Part shown: positions 30,519 to 53,054 of the stretch, piece after piece | Numbering within the stretch: position 1 is the stretch's first letter | How the letters are laid out: each line of letters begins with the position of its first letter | Source: Stenotrophomonas maltophilia | GTDB lineage: Bacteria; Pseudomonadota; Gammaproteobacteria; Xanthomonadales; Xanthomonadaceae | Direction of reading: 5' to 3' | DNA length: 64,000 nt | Assembly: GCF_002205165.1 (NCBI RefSeq) | Contig: NZ_NIVS01000055.1 | Span: 1-64,000 of the forward strand | Notes under the pieces: generated by a model | The model's database searches: none | What the model saw: the letters and a program-made list of their open reading frames with translations, nothing else | Told to the model about the DNA's origin: nothing | Made by a program: the position numbers and the translations under genes

Positions 30519-32200
30519 TGCCGCAGTACCTCAAGCCGGTTCCGGACTGGGAGGAGCACGAAAAACCGACCCTGCCGGGCTCGGCTTCGATGCCGTGGCA
30601 CCCGCCGCACCGCCGCCTCGCCTACGCCCTGGTCGCGCTGCTGGTCGGCATCACCGGCGGCCTGGGCAATGCCCTGGTCAGCGCCAACCTGCCGTTCCTG
30701 CAGGGCCAGCTCGGGCTCACTCCGGCGCAGGGCAGCTGGCTGGTGGCCGCCTATGCGATGGTCAACGTCACCGCCAACCTGCTGGCCTTCAAGTTCCGCC
30801 AGCAATACGGCATCCGCCTGTTCGCCGAGATCGGGCTGGGCCTGTATGCCGCGCTGGCAGTGCTGCATTTGTTCGTCGGCACCTTCGAAACCACGGTGCT
30901 GATGCGCGCGGCCAGCGGCTTCGCCGGTGCCGCCTGCAGCACCCTGGGCACGCTGTACATGCTGCAGTCGCTGCCGCGCAAATACACCGGCAACCTGCTG
31001 GTGATCGGCGTGGGCATCTCCCAACTTGCGGTACCGATCGCGTGGCTGGTCTCGCCGGGCCTGGTCGATACCGGGCAGTGGCACAACCTGTATCTGTTCG
31101 AGGCCGGGCTGGCCCTGTGCGCGTTCGCTGCCGTGGTGGTGCTCAAGCTGCCGCCCGGTGCGCAGATCAAGGCATTCGAACCGCTCGACTTCCTGACCTT
31201 CGCCCTGCTTGCGCCCGCCGTTGGCCTGCTGGTGGTCGTGCTTGCCCAGGGCTATACGCGCTGGTGGCTGGACACCCCGTGGCTGGGCTGGGCACTGGTC
31301 GCCTCGATCGCGCTGTCCACCACCGCGTTCATCATCGAACACTACCGCCGCAACCCACTGCTGCAGACGCGGTGGCTGGCCAGCCTGCCGGTGATCCACT
31401 TCATCATCGGCGCGTTCCTGATCCGCTTCCTGACCACCGAGCAGTCCTATGGAGTGGTCGGCCTGATGCGCACGCTCGGCATGGGCCCGGATCAGATGCG
31501 GCCGTTGTTCGCGGTGATCCTGGCCGGCGTGGTCACCGGCATCGCCGCCAGCTCGCTGACCTTCGGGCCGAAGCGGCTGATCCCGCAGCTGCTGATGGCG
31601 ATCCTGCTGCTCGGCAGCGCGGCCCTGCTCGACCAGAGCCGCACCAGCCAGGATCGCCCGCACGACTTCTTTGCCAGCCAGTTCCTGGCCTCGGTCGGCG
31701 CCGGCATGTTCATGGGGCCGCTGATCATGCTCGGCATCACCCAGGCCCTGAAACAGGGCGTGGACCACATGATCACCTTCCTGGTCACCCTTTCCATCAC
31801 CCAGACCCTGGGCGGCCTGGCCGGCTCGGCCGTGCTGGGCACCTATCAGCTGCACCGCGAACAGGTGTATTCCGGTGCGCTGGTCAGCCAGCTGGATCCA
31901 GCCGACAACGTGGTCGCCCAGCGCTTGAAGCAGCAACAGCAGCTCTACGCCAGACTGATCACCGACCCGGTGCAGCGCAGCGCGCAGGGCACCGCGCAGC
32001 TGGCGCAGATCACCCGCCGCGAAGCCAACGTGCGCGCGTTCAATGATGTGTTCGCACTCAGCGGCCGCGTCGCGCTGGTCTTCCTTGGCTGGTTGCTGCT
32101 GCTGGCAGTCCGCACCGCCGTGCTCAAGCAATGGCGCAAACGCCACGCGCCGACACCTCCCCTTTCCGCGCCGACGCCTGGCAGCGTCGCGCCCCGATGA
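30515..32200 (+). CDS. emrB: EmrB/QacA-type MFS multidrug pump
   Basis: 561-residue DHA2-type transporter with about 14 predicted helices. N-terminal features include LPFLQGQLGLTPAQGSWLVAAYAM, as in EmrB-like proteins. The long cytoplasmic/periplasmic stretch near residues 455-510 is rich in Gln. It works with the HlyD-type adaptor encoded next (ATGA overlap) and an outer-membrane TolC-like channel not present in the window. Substrates are probably hydrophobic toxicants. The symbol is assigned by family and context, not by close identity. Confidence 0.82.
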   Translation: MMPQYLKPVPDWEEHEKPTLPGSASMPWHPPHRRLAYALVALLVGITGGLGNALVSANLPFLQGQLGLTPAQGSWLVAAYAMVNVTANLLAFKFRQQYGIRLFAEIGLGLYAALAVLHLFVGTFETTVLMRAASGFAGAACSTLGTLYMLQSLPRKYTGNLLVIGVGISQLAVPIAWLVSPGLVDTGQWHNLYLFEAGLALCAFAAVVVLKLPPGAQIKAFEPLDFLTFALLAPAVGLLVVVLAQGYTRWWLDTPWLGWALVASIALSTTAFIIEHYRRNPLLQTRWLASLPVIHFIIGAFLIRFLTTEQSYGVVGLMRTLGMGPDQMRPLFAVILAGVVTGIAASSLTFGPKRLIPQLLMAILLLGSAALLDQSRTSQDRPHDFFASQFLASVGAGMFMGPLIMLGITQALKQGVDHMITFLVTLSITQTLGGLAGSAVLGTYQLHREQVYSGALVSQLDPADNVVAQRLKQQQQLYARLITDPVQRSAQGTAQLAQITRREANVRAFNDVFALSGRVALVFLGWLLLLAVRTAVLKQWRKRHAPTPPLSAPTPGSVAPR

Positions 32201-33393
32201 GCCCGCCCATGTCGACCCAACCCCCACACGACGACACCGCCCCGGAAAACGTCAACCCGCCGCCGCCCACCGACGCCGCGCCCGCCCCTGCGCCGCCGCC
32301 CGCAGCCGCGCCCTCGGGCGTGCCCAAGTACCTCAAGCCGAGCCTGCGCAGCGTGATCATCATGATCGTGATCGCACTGATCGGCATCGCGCTGATCCTG
32401 CGCGCGTGGTCGCTGTGGCCGTTCGAAACCTCGCGGGTCACGACCGACAACGCCTACGTCCGCGGCCAGATCACGGTGCTCGCACCACAGGTCAACGGCT
32501 ATGTCACCGAGGTGCTGGTCAAGGACTTCCAGCACGTCAAGCAAGGCGAGCCACTGCTGCGCATCGACGACCGCATCTACCGCGAGAAAGTCGTCCAGGC
32601 CGAAGCCGACCTGGACAGCGCCAAGGCCGCGCTGGCCAACTCCGATCAATCGCAGGCGCAGAACCGTGCGCAGATCCAGGCCGCACAGGCCAACCTCTCC
32701 GCCGGCCAGGCCGAGCTCTCGCGCTCGCGCACCGAACTCAAGCGCTACGAAGAACTTGCCGCCCAGCAACTGGTCGCCCTCAACGACCGCGACAAGTTCC
32801 GCACCACCACCCAGTCCGCGCAGGCCAGCGTGCTGCAGTCGCAGGCGCAGATCCGCATCGCCGAAGAAACCCTGACCTCCACCCAGGTCGCCCGCAAAGG
32901 CCTGGAAGCCCGCGTCGAAACCGCCCAGGCCCAGCTGGCGCTGGCGAAGATCGACCTGGCCAACACCGTGATCCAGGCGCCACGCGACGGCCAGGTCAGC
33001 GAAGCCTCGGTGCGCCTGGGCCAGTACGTCACCGCCGGTTCGCAGCTGCTGTTCCTGGTACCCGACGCCCTGTGGGTGGTCGCCAACTTCAAGGAAGGCC
33101 AGACCTGGAAGATGCGCATCGGCCAACCGGCCACCTTCTCCGTGGATGCCTTCGACGGCGAGAAACTGCACGGCCACATCGAACAGATCGCCCCGGCCAC
33201 CGGCTCCGAATTCAGCGTCCTGCGCCCGGACAACGCCAGCGGCAACTTCACCAAGGTCGTTCAGCGCCTGCCGATCCGCATCGCCATCGACCCCGACCAA
33301 CCGCTGGCCCCGCGCCTGCGCCCCGGCATGTCGGTGATCGTCAAGGTGGATACCGCCGCCGAAGGGCGAGAGCCGGCCGGTGCGAAGCCGTAG
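32197..33393 (+). CDS. emrA: HlyD/EmrA-type membrane fusion protein
   Basis: 398-residue periplasmic adaptor. A Pro/Ala-rich cytoplasmic N terminus (to about residue 50) and one membrane helix (RSVIIMIVIALIGIALIL) precede a biotinyl-lipoyl-like domain (VTTDNAYVRGQITVLAPQVNGYVTEVLV), a long alpha-helical hairpin (about 130-250) and a beta-barrel domain. These are the standard EmrA elements. It overlaps the pump gene by 4 nt. A second ATG at 32209 is possible. No outer-membrane gene follows, as is usual for this operon type. Confidence 0.87.
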   Translation: MSPPMSTQPPHDDTAPENVNPPPPTDAAPAPAPPPAAAPSGVPKYLKPSLRSVIIMIVIALIGIALILRAWSLWPFETSRVTTDNAYVRGQITVLAPQVNGYVTEVLVKDFQHVKQGEPLLRIDDRIYREKVVQAEADLDSAKAALANSDQSQAQNRAQIQAAQANLSAGQAELSRSRTELKRYEELAAQQLVALNDRDKFRTTTQSAQASVLQSQAQIRIAEETLTSTQVARKGLEARVETAQAQLALAKIDLANTVIQAPRDGQVSEASVRLGQYVTAGSQLLFLVPDALWVVANFKEGQTWKMRIGQPATFSVDAFDGEKLHGHIEQIAPATGSEFSVLRPDNASGNFTKVVQRLPIRIAIDPDQPLAPRLRPGMSVIVKVDTAAEGREPAGAKP

Positions 33394-33444
33394 CGCGCCC
33401 GCGCGCAGAACGCCAACGCCTTCCCCACCCCAGTCCGAAACCGT

Positions 33445-33559
33445 CGGAAGCGAGTCGGGCAGCCTGAAACAGGACCGTTGGAGCGGCATGGATGCCGCTC
33501 ACGAGTCCCAAGGATGGGTTTACGGCGCGTCCTGCTCCAGGCTGCCCGGCTCGCTTCCG
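33445..33559. repeat. 115-bp element with 22-bp terminal inverted repeats
   Basis: The ends 33445-33466 and 33538-33559 are inverted repeats with 21 of 22 positions complementary (the exception is a possible G-U pair). Inside, CAGGAC (33470-33475) pairs with GTCCTG (33529-33534), enclosing a perfect 9-bp hairpin (33481-33489 with 33492-33500) and a 4-bp hairpin (CCCA-AGGA-TGGG, 33507-33518). The whole folds as a two-armed structure on either strand. The inner GCGGCATGGATGCCGC and GGCG(C)GTCC parts recall a family of intergenic repeats common in Xanthomonas, Pseudomonas and Stenotrophomonas, from memory only. No target duplication is evident and no second copy was noticed in the window. Confidence 0.75.
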
Positions 33560-33609
33560 CAGAGGGGAACAGAGTGGCCGCTTTACACCTGCTCTGGCGC
33601 AGAAACGAA

Positions 33610-33635
33610 AAAAGCCGCGCAGGGGCGCGGCTTTT
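33610..33635. terminator. Bidirectional terminator between emrA and zur
   Basis: AAAAGCCGCGC (33610-33620) and GCGCGGCTTTT (33625-33635) form an 11-bp stem with loop AGGG. An A run precedes and a T run ends it. Confidence 0.85.
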
Positions 33636-33649
33636 CATCATCAACAGCG

Positions 33650-33676
33650 TACCGACCAACGGTCGGCACCTACCGG
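33650..33676 (-). repeat. GTAG-type short palindrome (SMAG/REP-like)
   Basis: On the minus strand: GGTAGGTGCCGACC-GTT-GGTCGG. The GTAG head, a CCGACC/GGTCGG stem and a GTT loop match two further copies at 49539-49603. Confidence 0.65.
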
Positions 33677-33707
33677 CGGATGCAGCACCCCACGATCGGT
33701 ACCTGCC

Positions 33708-34193
33708 TTACCCCGCACACCGCGCGCACAGGCCATGCACTTCCAGCGTCTGCGCCTGCGGCTGGAACCCGAGCTCCTTCGCCCGCTTCTCCAGCTGGCT
33801 GACAATCTCCTTGTCCTCCAACTCCACCGCACTGTGGCAGCTGTTGCAGATCAGGAACGGCACCGAATGCTGCGCACTGCTCGGATGGTGGCAGGCCACG
33901 AACGCATTCACCGATTCCAGCTTGTGCACGAAGCCATTGGCCATCAGGAAATCCAGCGCGCGGTAGACCGTCGGCGGGGCGTCGGCACCGACGCCCTTGC
34001 CATTGCGCACCCACTCCAGCAACTCATACGCCTTGACCGGCTTGCCGGCCTCGGCGATCAGGCGCAGCACGTTCGCGCGGATCGGCGTCAGCCGCAGCCC
34101 GCGTTCCGAACACACGCGTTCGACCACCTTCACGAAGTCGGAGGCGTCGTGAACGTGATGGTGCGGAGCGGTACAAGCGGTTTTAGCGGACAT
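33708..34193 (-). CDS. zur: Fur-family zinc uptake regulator Zur
   Basis: 161-residue Fur-family repressor. The His-rich N terminus (APHHHVHD), helix-turn-helix (LRLTPIRANVLRLIAEAGKPVKAYELL, PTVYRALDFLMANGFVHKLES) and two CxxC pairs (CNSCHS and CARC) fit Zur, with structural zinc held by the Cys pairs. With zinc it should repress uptake genes such as the ZnuD/MerC pair at 25.3-28.1 kb. AGGAGA lies 6 nt upstream. It follows gltX by 16 bp on the same strand, so it is likely cotranscribed with gltX. Confidence 0.87.
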   Translation of the reverse strand: MSAKTACTAPHHHVHDASDFVKVVERVCSERGLRLTPIRANVLRLIAEAGKPVKAYELLEWVRNGKGVGADAPPTVYRALDFLMANGFVHKLESVNAFVACHHPSSAQHSVPFLICNSCHSAVELEDKEIVSQLEKRAKELGFQPQAQTLEVHGLCARCAG

Positions 34194-51629: not shown

Positions 51630-53054
51630 GTGCATAACGTTCCAAATCTTGATGAAGCCAGCCAACCGCTGGCGCTGGCCTGGGCACAGACGCTGACGCA
51701 GACGCCGGCCGCCGCGGCGACGCTGCTGGGCAGCCTCTCGGCGGAGAGCCCGCCCGGGCTGGCCCACCATTTCTACGATGTGCTGCTCGAAGACCCGCGC
51801 GCGGGCCGCTTCCTCTCGCACGACCAGGTACGCCTGCGCCTGAAACCGGCGATGCAGCGATGGCTGCAGCAGATCCTCACCGCCACGCCGGACAGCATCA
51901 ACGCGCTGGTCGCCGCGCAGCGCGTGATCGGTGACGTACATGCCCGCGTGGGCATTCCGGTGGATCTGGTGGCCCGCGGTGCGCGTGTCCTCAAGCATCG
52001 CCTGTTCGACCGCATCATCGCGCAGGCCGACGACAGTGCGACCGCGTTCGCGGCGATCCACTGCCTCAGCGCCTCGATGGATATCGCGCTGGAAGGCATG
52101 ACCCTGGCCTACACGCACGCACGCGAACGCTCTTCACGGACCGATGCGGCCTACCGCCTGTTCTCGCTGGTACAGAACGTCAGCACCGAGCGCGAGCGTC
52201 AACGTGCCCTGCTGCTGGATTGGGAAAACGCGCTGCTCTATGCGATGGCCAGCCAGAATGCGGACGCCGAACTCACCGGGCTGGCCCAGTCCGAATTCGG
52301 CCTGTGGTTCACGCACAAGGGCATTCCCAGTTTCGGCGAAAGCAGCGAGACCGGCCAGGTCGGCGCCCTGGTGGCCGCGGTCGATACCCAGCTGCGCGAA
52401 GCGCTGGCGCATGCCGATTTCGCAGCGCGCTTCGGCGCGCTGCAGGGCATCCGCGAGCGGCTGGCGCAGATCCGCACGCTGATGGGGATGTTGTTCGAAC
52501 GGATCGGCGAACTCGATGCCGGCAGCGACGCACTGACCAACCTGCTCAACCGTCGCTTCCTGCCTACCGTGCTGCGGCGGGAAATCGAGCTGGCCAATGC
52601 CACGCAGACGCCGTTCTCGGTGCTGCTGCTGGATCTGGACCACTTCAAGGCGATCAATGATGCGCACGGCCATGACGGCGGCGACCGCGCCCTGCAGCAC
52701 GTGGCCGCCCTGCTCGGCCAGCTCACCCGTGGCAGCGACTACCTGTTCCGTTATGGCGGTGAGGAGTTCGTGGTGGTGCTGGTGGCGGCCACGGCCGCCC
52801 AGGCCGAGGTGATCGCGGAAAATCTGCGCAAGCACATCGCGCAGAGCCCGGTGCAGCTGGCCAATGGCCAGCACCTGTCGCTGACCACCAGCATCGGCGT
52901 CGCCGCGCATGATGGCCATCCCGACTACGAGCGGCTGATGGCGCGCGCCGATGCGGCGATGTACCAGGCCAAGAAGCGCGGGCGCGACCAGGTGGTGCTG
53001 GCCACCGACACACTCCCCGATGCCCCGGGCAGACAGGCCCTGCAGCGCGGATGA
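51630..53054 (+). CDS. Globin-coupled diguanylate cyclase
   Basis: 474 residues. The N-terminal about 160 residues form a sensor globin (family motif VIGDVHARVGIP, with His104 as proximal haem ligand), followed by a middle helical domain and a GGDEF domain (DALTNLLNRRFL, DLDHFKAIND, GGEEF at 376-380) with an RxxD inhibitory site (RGSD, 367-370). This is the layout of E. coli DosC and Bordetella BpeGReg: oxygen binding to haem tunes c-di-GMP synthesis. The GTG at 51630 has GGAAG 7 nt upstream and is preferred to the TTG at 51564. Confidence 0.88.
   Translation: MHNVPNLDEASQPLALAWAQTLTQTPAAAATLLGSLSAESPPGLAHHFYDVLLEDPRAGRFLSHDQVRLRLKPAMQRWLQQILTATPDSINALVAAQRVIGDVHARVGIPVDLVARGARVLKHRLFDRIIAQADDSATAFAAIHCLSASMDIALEGMTLAYTHARERSSRTDAAYRLFSLVQNVSTERERQRALLLDWENALLYAMASQNADAELTGLAQSEFGLWFTHKGIPSFGESSETGQVGALVAAVDTQLREALAHADFAARFGALQGIRERLAQIRTLMGMLFERIGELDAGSDALTNLLNRRFLPTVLRREIELANATQTPFSVLLLDLDHFKAINDAHGHDGGDRALQHVAALLGQLTRGSDYLFRYGGEEFVVVLVAATAAQAEVIAENLRKHIAQSPVQLANGQHLSLTTSIGVAAHDGHPDYERLMARADAAMYQAKKRGRDQVVLATDTLPDAPGRQALQRG

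Follow-up and report, generated by a model that had tools for sequence, protein, structure and literature searches.

The window analysed here is a stretch of 64,000 nucleotides from a Stenotrophomonas maltophilia genome. An emrA-type gene (EmrA/HlyD-type) and a convergent Fur-family, zur-like gene enclose in it a 115-bp structured inverted repeat (Table 1), which lies 51 nt past the emrA stop codon, in the sense orientation and ahead of a terminator-like hairpin; no promoter of its own was found for this element. The hairpin stands where the first-pass annotation of this DNA had placed a separate terminator, near position 33610. Separate short palindromes of the type TACCGACCAACGGTCGGCACCTACC, probably of the SMAG/REP type, are found at 33649-33700, and their number varies among orthologous emrA-zur gaps.

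Table 1. Features of the emrA-zur region, given as positions in the window.
Feature	Position	Strand	Basis or remark
emrA-type HlyD gene	32131..33393	+	Pfam HlyD_3, E 1e-18
Whole element, Stenotrophomonas form of a YPAL/RU-2-like dispersed repeat	33445..33559	+	Copies in own genome and class-wide matches
Left clamp arm	33445..33475	+	31 nt, 90% complementary to 33529-33559
Conserved core, three-way junction	33472..33532	+	Covariance model R1 match, 80.3 bits
Hairpin A, hexaloop AUGGAU, GGA 33490-33492; predicted CsrA/RsmA site 1	33476..33503	+	Loop conservation, stem covariation
Hairpin B, hexaloop AAGGAU, GGA 33512-33514; predicted CsrA/RsmA site 2	33505..33526	+	Loop conservation
Right clamp arm	33529..33559	+	Pairs with 33445-33475; sequence specific to the emrA-zur locus and its orthologues
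Terminator-like hairpin, neighbour outside the repeat	33609..33636	.	Scored on the - strand; A/T-rich on both sides
Fur-family (zur-like) gene, convergent neighbour	33708..34193	-	Pfam FUR, E 2.4e-12

The element had been described from the letters as a structured inverted repeat with two central hairpins, and both parts of this description proved right. Its arms, separated by 53 nt, form an inverted repeat longer than any other near-perfect one within 150 bp in the whole window, and the RNA fold of positions 33435-33569 reaches -86.7 kcal/mol in comparison to a mean of -54.2 for shuffled sequences (z -7.9, 0 of 200 shuffles). The hairpins are not loose, as a refinement of the earlier description; they are enclosed in a three-way junction closed by GGAC/GTCC, and the GGA of the second loop follows that of the first after 19 nt.

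Known classes of elements were compared with this structure. REP/SMAG sequences are short hairpins (about 20-40 nt) with a GTAG foot, and those of Stenotrophomonas resemble our element in being dispersed palindromes that often occur as inverted pairs. Identity with them was rejected, since no GTAG is present at 33445-33559 and the 115-bp structure has far longer arms and a three-way junction core; SMAG-like hairpins stand separately beside the element. A classical MITE was also rejected, as the terminal arms are not common to most copies and no longer, ORF-bearing split core was found in 2 Mb. An integron attC site and a hammerhead-type ribozyme were dropped by eye, the conserved motifs of both being absent. 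Rfam searches with the element and one long form returned only sub-threshold chance matches, with no CsrB or RsmX/Y/Z at gathering score.

The palindrome did not arise by chance, since about 30 copies of the element occur in its own genome (4.4 Mb, 60 contigs), mostly in intergenic positions. A 62-nt core is conserved among these copies, and each of them has its own near-perfect arms. The arms vary from locus to locus yet remain complementary, and between most loci, even within one genome, they differ completely; since only their pairing matters, they are free to diverge. The ends of six contigs of this assembly (G000 C8, C13, C18, C20, C33 and C59) fall inside or within about 600 bp of repeat copies. 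The own-genome count is thus a lower bound, and the repeat probably interrupts short-read assembly, leaving its copies under-counted in draft genomes. Congeneric genomes contain from 0 to at least 131 copies.

The copies are often arranged as inverted pairs, about 200-500 bp apart and pointing outward (G021 133556/133898 and 141065/141386; G325 47438/47656 and its orthologues; C5, C8 and C18 of the own genome). The site of such a pair is kept across species while the arm and core variants found there change, as if copies had been swapped or converted.

The search for copies, which the first-pass annotation had proposed for the genome and its relatives, was thus productive at home and proved so beyond. 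A covariance model built solely from 13 own-genome cores matched 49 of 274 sampled genomes of the class Gammaproteobacteria, and a phylum sample of 398 genomes gave 28 positives, all 28 in the same class. More than 120 stretches were matched by a pattern covering hairpin B only; the names among the 80 matches listed include Marinobacter, Rheinheimera, Idiomarina, Shewanella, Ectothiorhodospira, Methylomicrobium, Halopseudomonas, Pectobacterium, Yersinia and Stenotrophomonas. The class consensus core was searched for in plasmids, phages and E. coli, with no match at E<=1e-5. With the Stenotrophomonas core as query, weak matches were obtained on one Marinobacter and one Halomonas replicon, while the Yersinia core detected one locus shared by conjugative plasmids of enterobacteria and one E. 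coli chromosome. This single locus (L386-L388, L390; IncN, IncF and IncR plasmids) lies beside a gene for an iron-containing alcohol dehydrogenase, and IS elements are next to it as well in several records.

A repeat of this kind has been known from Yersinia. YPAL, or RU-2, is reportedly a Yersinia palindromic sequence of 167-168 bp, and De Gregorio 2006 (the primary YPAL paper) and Delihas 2007 are said to treat it. The two names refer to the same repeat, described for Yersinia and Erwinia carotovora as mobile (PMC2229807), with 2-144 copies per Yersinia genome (PMC2847712). The 168-bp Y. pestis RU-2 sequence published in PMC2759123 contains the same core, and a model made solely from Stenotrophomonas copies matched one copy in Y. 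similis (E 1e-9) as well as copies in Pectobacterium (E 1e-9 and 1e-8; Infernal E-values are rough, given a short calibration). On these core matches, we firmly place the element in a family of dispersed intergenic repeats that extends through the Gammaproteobacteria and to which YPAL/RU-2 of Yersinia also belongs. Both are dispersed, intergenic and palindromic, share the core and are absent from some orthologous sites, whereas their arms are entirely different and their lengths are about 167 bp and 115 bp, respectively. Since short and long forms exist in Stenotrophomonas, length appears to be variable across the wider family. The family is also wider than the range given for YPAL/RU-2 in the literature consulted, which comprises only Yersinia and Erwinia carotovora. 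A repeat family of Xanthomonas and Pseudomonas, which had been suspected at the outset, was not confirmed, and YPAL/RU-2 is the nearest described one.

We assessed selection on the fold by using 106 diverse copies. Standard pairs occupy 87.4% of the cells in comparison to 64.1% in shuffles, double-sided pair changes number 620 as against 167, and the covariation score is 0.566 as against 0.152 (0 of 500 shuffles in all three cases). When the structure was slid by one column, pairing fell to about 30-35%. Among 81 named loci, gathered separately, 80% of the arm pairs exceed the 99th percentile of arms swapped between loci. The first-pass annotation had stated that a lack of copies and of compensatory changes would argue against both a mobile element and a conserved RNA; copies and compensatory changes are both present.

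Mismatches within the arms carry information on the strand. The arms were aligned without favouring G.T, and G.T mismatches then outnumbered A.C mismatches by 125 to 30 in the first set and by 99 to 22 in the separately gathered named set; counted per locus, the bias is 38 to 5 in favour of G.T (p 2.5e-7). The shorter stem A has no G.T excess (22 to 18), and the alignment misplaces some of its bases. Since the opposite strand would read G.T mismatches as A.C, a folded single plus strand is the natural explanation. Covariation and the G.T bias thus show that the plus strand is selected as a folded single strand, be it RNA (with G.U pairs) or single-stranded DNA.

That single-stranded DNA would yield an identical G.T bias counts against an RNA-specific reading, and it suits a rival view, in which selection maintains the fold in single-stranded DNA so that a miniature mobile element can transpose, as with IS200/REP transposases. 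The transposing enzyme would then recognise the GGA loops, and any effect at the RNA level would be incidental. Dispersal, high copy number, inverted pairs and differences in presence and absence all agree with this explanation, as does the published account of YPAL, a mobile repeat said to insert at dyad symmetries and to have target duplications of 3-26 bp (PMC2229807). We found no sense preference relative to the upstream gene (26 of 55 copies, with rough gene calls; 25 of 45 in Stenotrophomonas). A 3′ UTR element would be expected to show one, and its lack leaves room for a role of single-stranded DNA in mobility. Most element-bearing genomes encode Y1 transposases; however, these are missing in complete, element-rich genomes such as G278, G113 and G241, their co-occurrence with the element did not discriminate, and a search of 2 Mb revealed no autonomous parent whose core encloses an ORF. 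A further difficulty is that the loops closely match an RNA-binding consensus, including its free position and the spacing suited to a protein dimer (see below). We therefore regard this explanation as unlikely, though it deserves to be kept in mind.

Comparison of orthologous sites bears on the same question. In the emrA-zur gap the element is present in three species, and others have opposite-orientation copies. The empty-site comparison proposed by the first-pass annotation did reveal an absence, in G019, but this gap lies within a wider deletion. No clean empty site was found in five syntenic 400-kb segments, where the apparent empties were deletions or rearranged, nor was any clean insertion with target duplication found among the compared loci. 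The annotation had offered a mobile element or a structured RNA, and each gained support, the former from the dispersed repeat and its presence and absence (the expected clean empty site with a target duplication was not found), and the latter from the compensatory changes and the single-strand signature.

It could also be proposed that only the 62-nt core is mobile, the arms being a pre-existing palindromic target or its inverted copy made upon insertion. The complete difference of arms between most loci, even inside one genome, would be accounted for in this way, and YPAL targets have been reported at dyad symmetries (PMC2229807). However, the G019 gap lacks both arms along with the element (with the wider deletion as a proviso), and arm families are common to many Stenotrophomonas copies. 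Moreover, at one locus in different species the arms change in matched blocks, as compensatory evolution predicts. We consider such an origin of the arms very improbable.

While the stems vary freely, the loops hardly change. Of the 106 diverse copies, 105 have GGA in loop A, 102 of them as A(N)GGA, and loop B contains ANGGA in all 106, including 39 rows found without the loop-B pattern; the position N varies. The GGA motifs are 19-21 nt apart in every one of the 105 copies scored, and in 89 of them the distance is 20 nt. These features can be set against the published rules of CsrA binding. The SELEX consensus, RUACARGGAUGU, has an invariant ACA and GGA (PMC4347634); the selected hairpins have mostly six-nucleotide loops with AC/GU closing, and a CsrA dimer bridges sites 10-63 nt apart, best at more than 18 nt (PMC7652899). 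At least 10 of the 12 consensus positions are matched in 79 of 106 copies, and the common form of hairpin B, CUACAGGGAUGUAU, fits the published rules. In hairpin B of the window, as in other copies with CCC/GGG stems, the ACA of the consensus is CCA. CsrA is said to disfavour very stable hairpins (PMC7652899), and the stability of hairpin A is in tension with this report. Since the two A-N-GGA sites lie about 20 nt apart, one CsrA dimer could bridge both. From these matches we predict that the element carries paired CsrA/RsmA binding sites. The own genome does encode CsrA (PF02599 match, E 1.8e-25). A csrA gene was found in 45 of 49 element-bearing genomes, the four others being 67-88% complete in three cases and 98% complete in one. 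As it was also found in 18 of 20 genomes without elements, this co-occurrence does not discriminate and could only have spoken against the prediction. The predicted link of CsrA/RsmA to YPAL-type repeats appears to be new, as none to YPAL or such repeats was found in the literature searched, with De Gregorio 2006 outside its reach.

The element can be compared with RNAs already known to bind these proteins. Like sponge RNAs of the CsrB/RsmY/RsmZ type, it presents GGA in hairpin loops at a spacing that a CsrA dimer can bridge, and its long forms add AGGA hairpins; unlike them, it has tens to hundreds of dispersed copies, each with two sites, and no promoter was found for it. RsmU of Xanthomonas campestris, a 3′ UTR-derived RsmA-binding sRNA, is likewise an RsmA-binding module in an mRNA 3′ UTR, and from the same bacterial family, whereas binding by our element is only predicted; RsmU, in turn, is single-copy and reported only in Xanthomonas, with several GGA motifs and no described clamp or repeat family (PMC7694677).

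The long forms occur in S. maltophilia-like genomes and have extra hairpins inserted at the loops. Several of these hairpins have the loop CAGGACG or GCAGGACAGC, which are of the CAGGA(U/A/C)G type seen in CsrB repeats (PMC7652899). The inserted modules measure about 75-90 nt, are made up of further hairpins and interrupt hairpin A or B precisely at its apical loop (G021:C1 97407 and 231756; G325:C1 62890 and 226624; G324:C1 263175; G348:C1 215653; G344:C1 ~51900-52350). At one locus the hairpin B module is found in G344 and not in G348, as if nested insertions target loops.

Other variants were also observed. Six copies form a same-strand tandem array with a 227-bp period in one genome (L344 212-1576; G527:C1 94440-95636), which, if transcribed, would yield a CsrB-like RNA bearing about 12 GGA hairpins. 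A similar array of about four copies at 180 bp is present in an uncultured Saccharophagus (L225 3088-3804). In L254, L259, L266 and L270, a larger branched insert takes the place of hairpin A, and its hairpins have GGA on the opposite strand.

We favour, at somewhat better than an even chance, the view that this is a mobile-type repeat doubling as a dual-site CsrA/RsmA-binding RNA module, located here in the emrA 3′ UTR. Read-through from emrA would co-transcribe the element, and its RNA would fold to a stable clamp isolating the two sites at bridging distance. Bound RsmA could shield the 3′ end, making the element a local, RsmA-dependent 3′ end element, while the approximately 30 dispersed copies could act as RsmA decoys, lowering free RsmA in proportion to the transcription of all copies. 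A simpler function would be that of a generic RNA-stabilising 3′ hairpin or terminator helper, REP/BIME-like and with no specific protein partner. The site between emrA and the terminator-like hairpin and the very stable fold would suit it, and YPAL is reported to be expressed with upstream genes, perhaps influencing RNA stability (PMC2229807). However, such a hairpin needs neither two invariant ANGGA loops at fixed spacing, kept while every stem changes, nor the additional AGGA hairpins of the long forms, and we find it improbable.

Beyond this locus, it is possible, at slightly less than an even chance, that a repeat family found throughout the Gammaproteobacteria has dispersed paired CsrA/RsmA sites, with tens to hundreds of them in a genome; some would stand in tandem arrays and others would be enlarged by CsrB-like hairpins. 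Mobile DNA would in this case titrate CsrA and rewire its regulon, in addition to the dedicated CsrB/Rsm sRNAs. Homologues of CsrB/C and RsmV-Z have been reported missing from Xanthomonas (PMC7694677), which would make its relative Stenotrophomonas an apt case if the CsrA reading is true. Even without CsrA, YPAL/RU-2 of Yersinia and Erwinia is now joined to a Gammaproteobacteria-wide repeat family. If the copies do bind CsrA/RsmA, there would be a molecular role for a long-known and unexplained class of bacterial palindromic repeats, and the CsrA network, in which models usually include few sponge sRNAs, would gain many cheap, mobile and evolvable sites.
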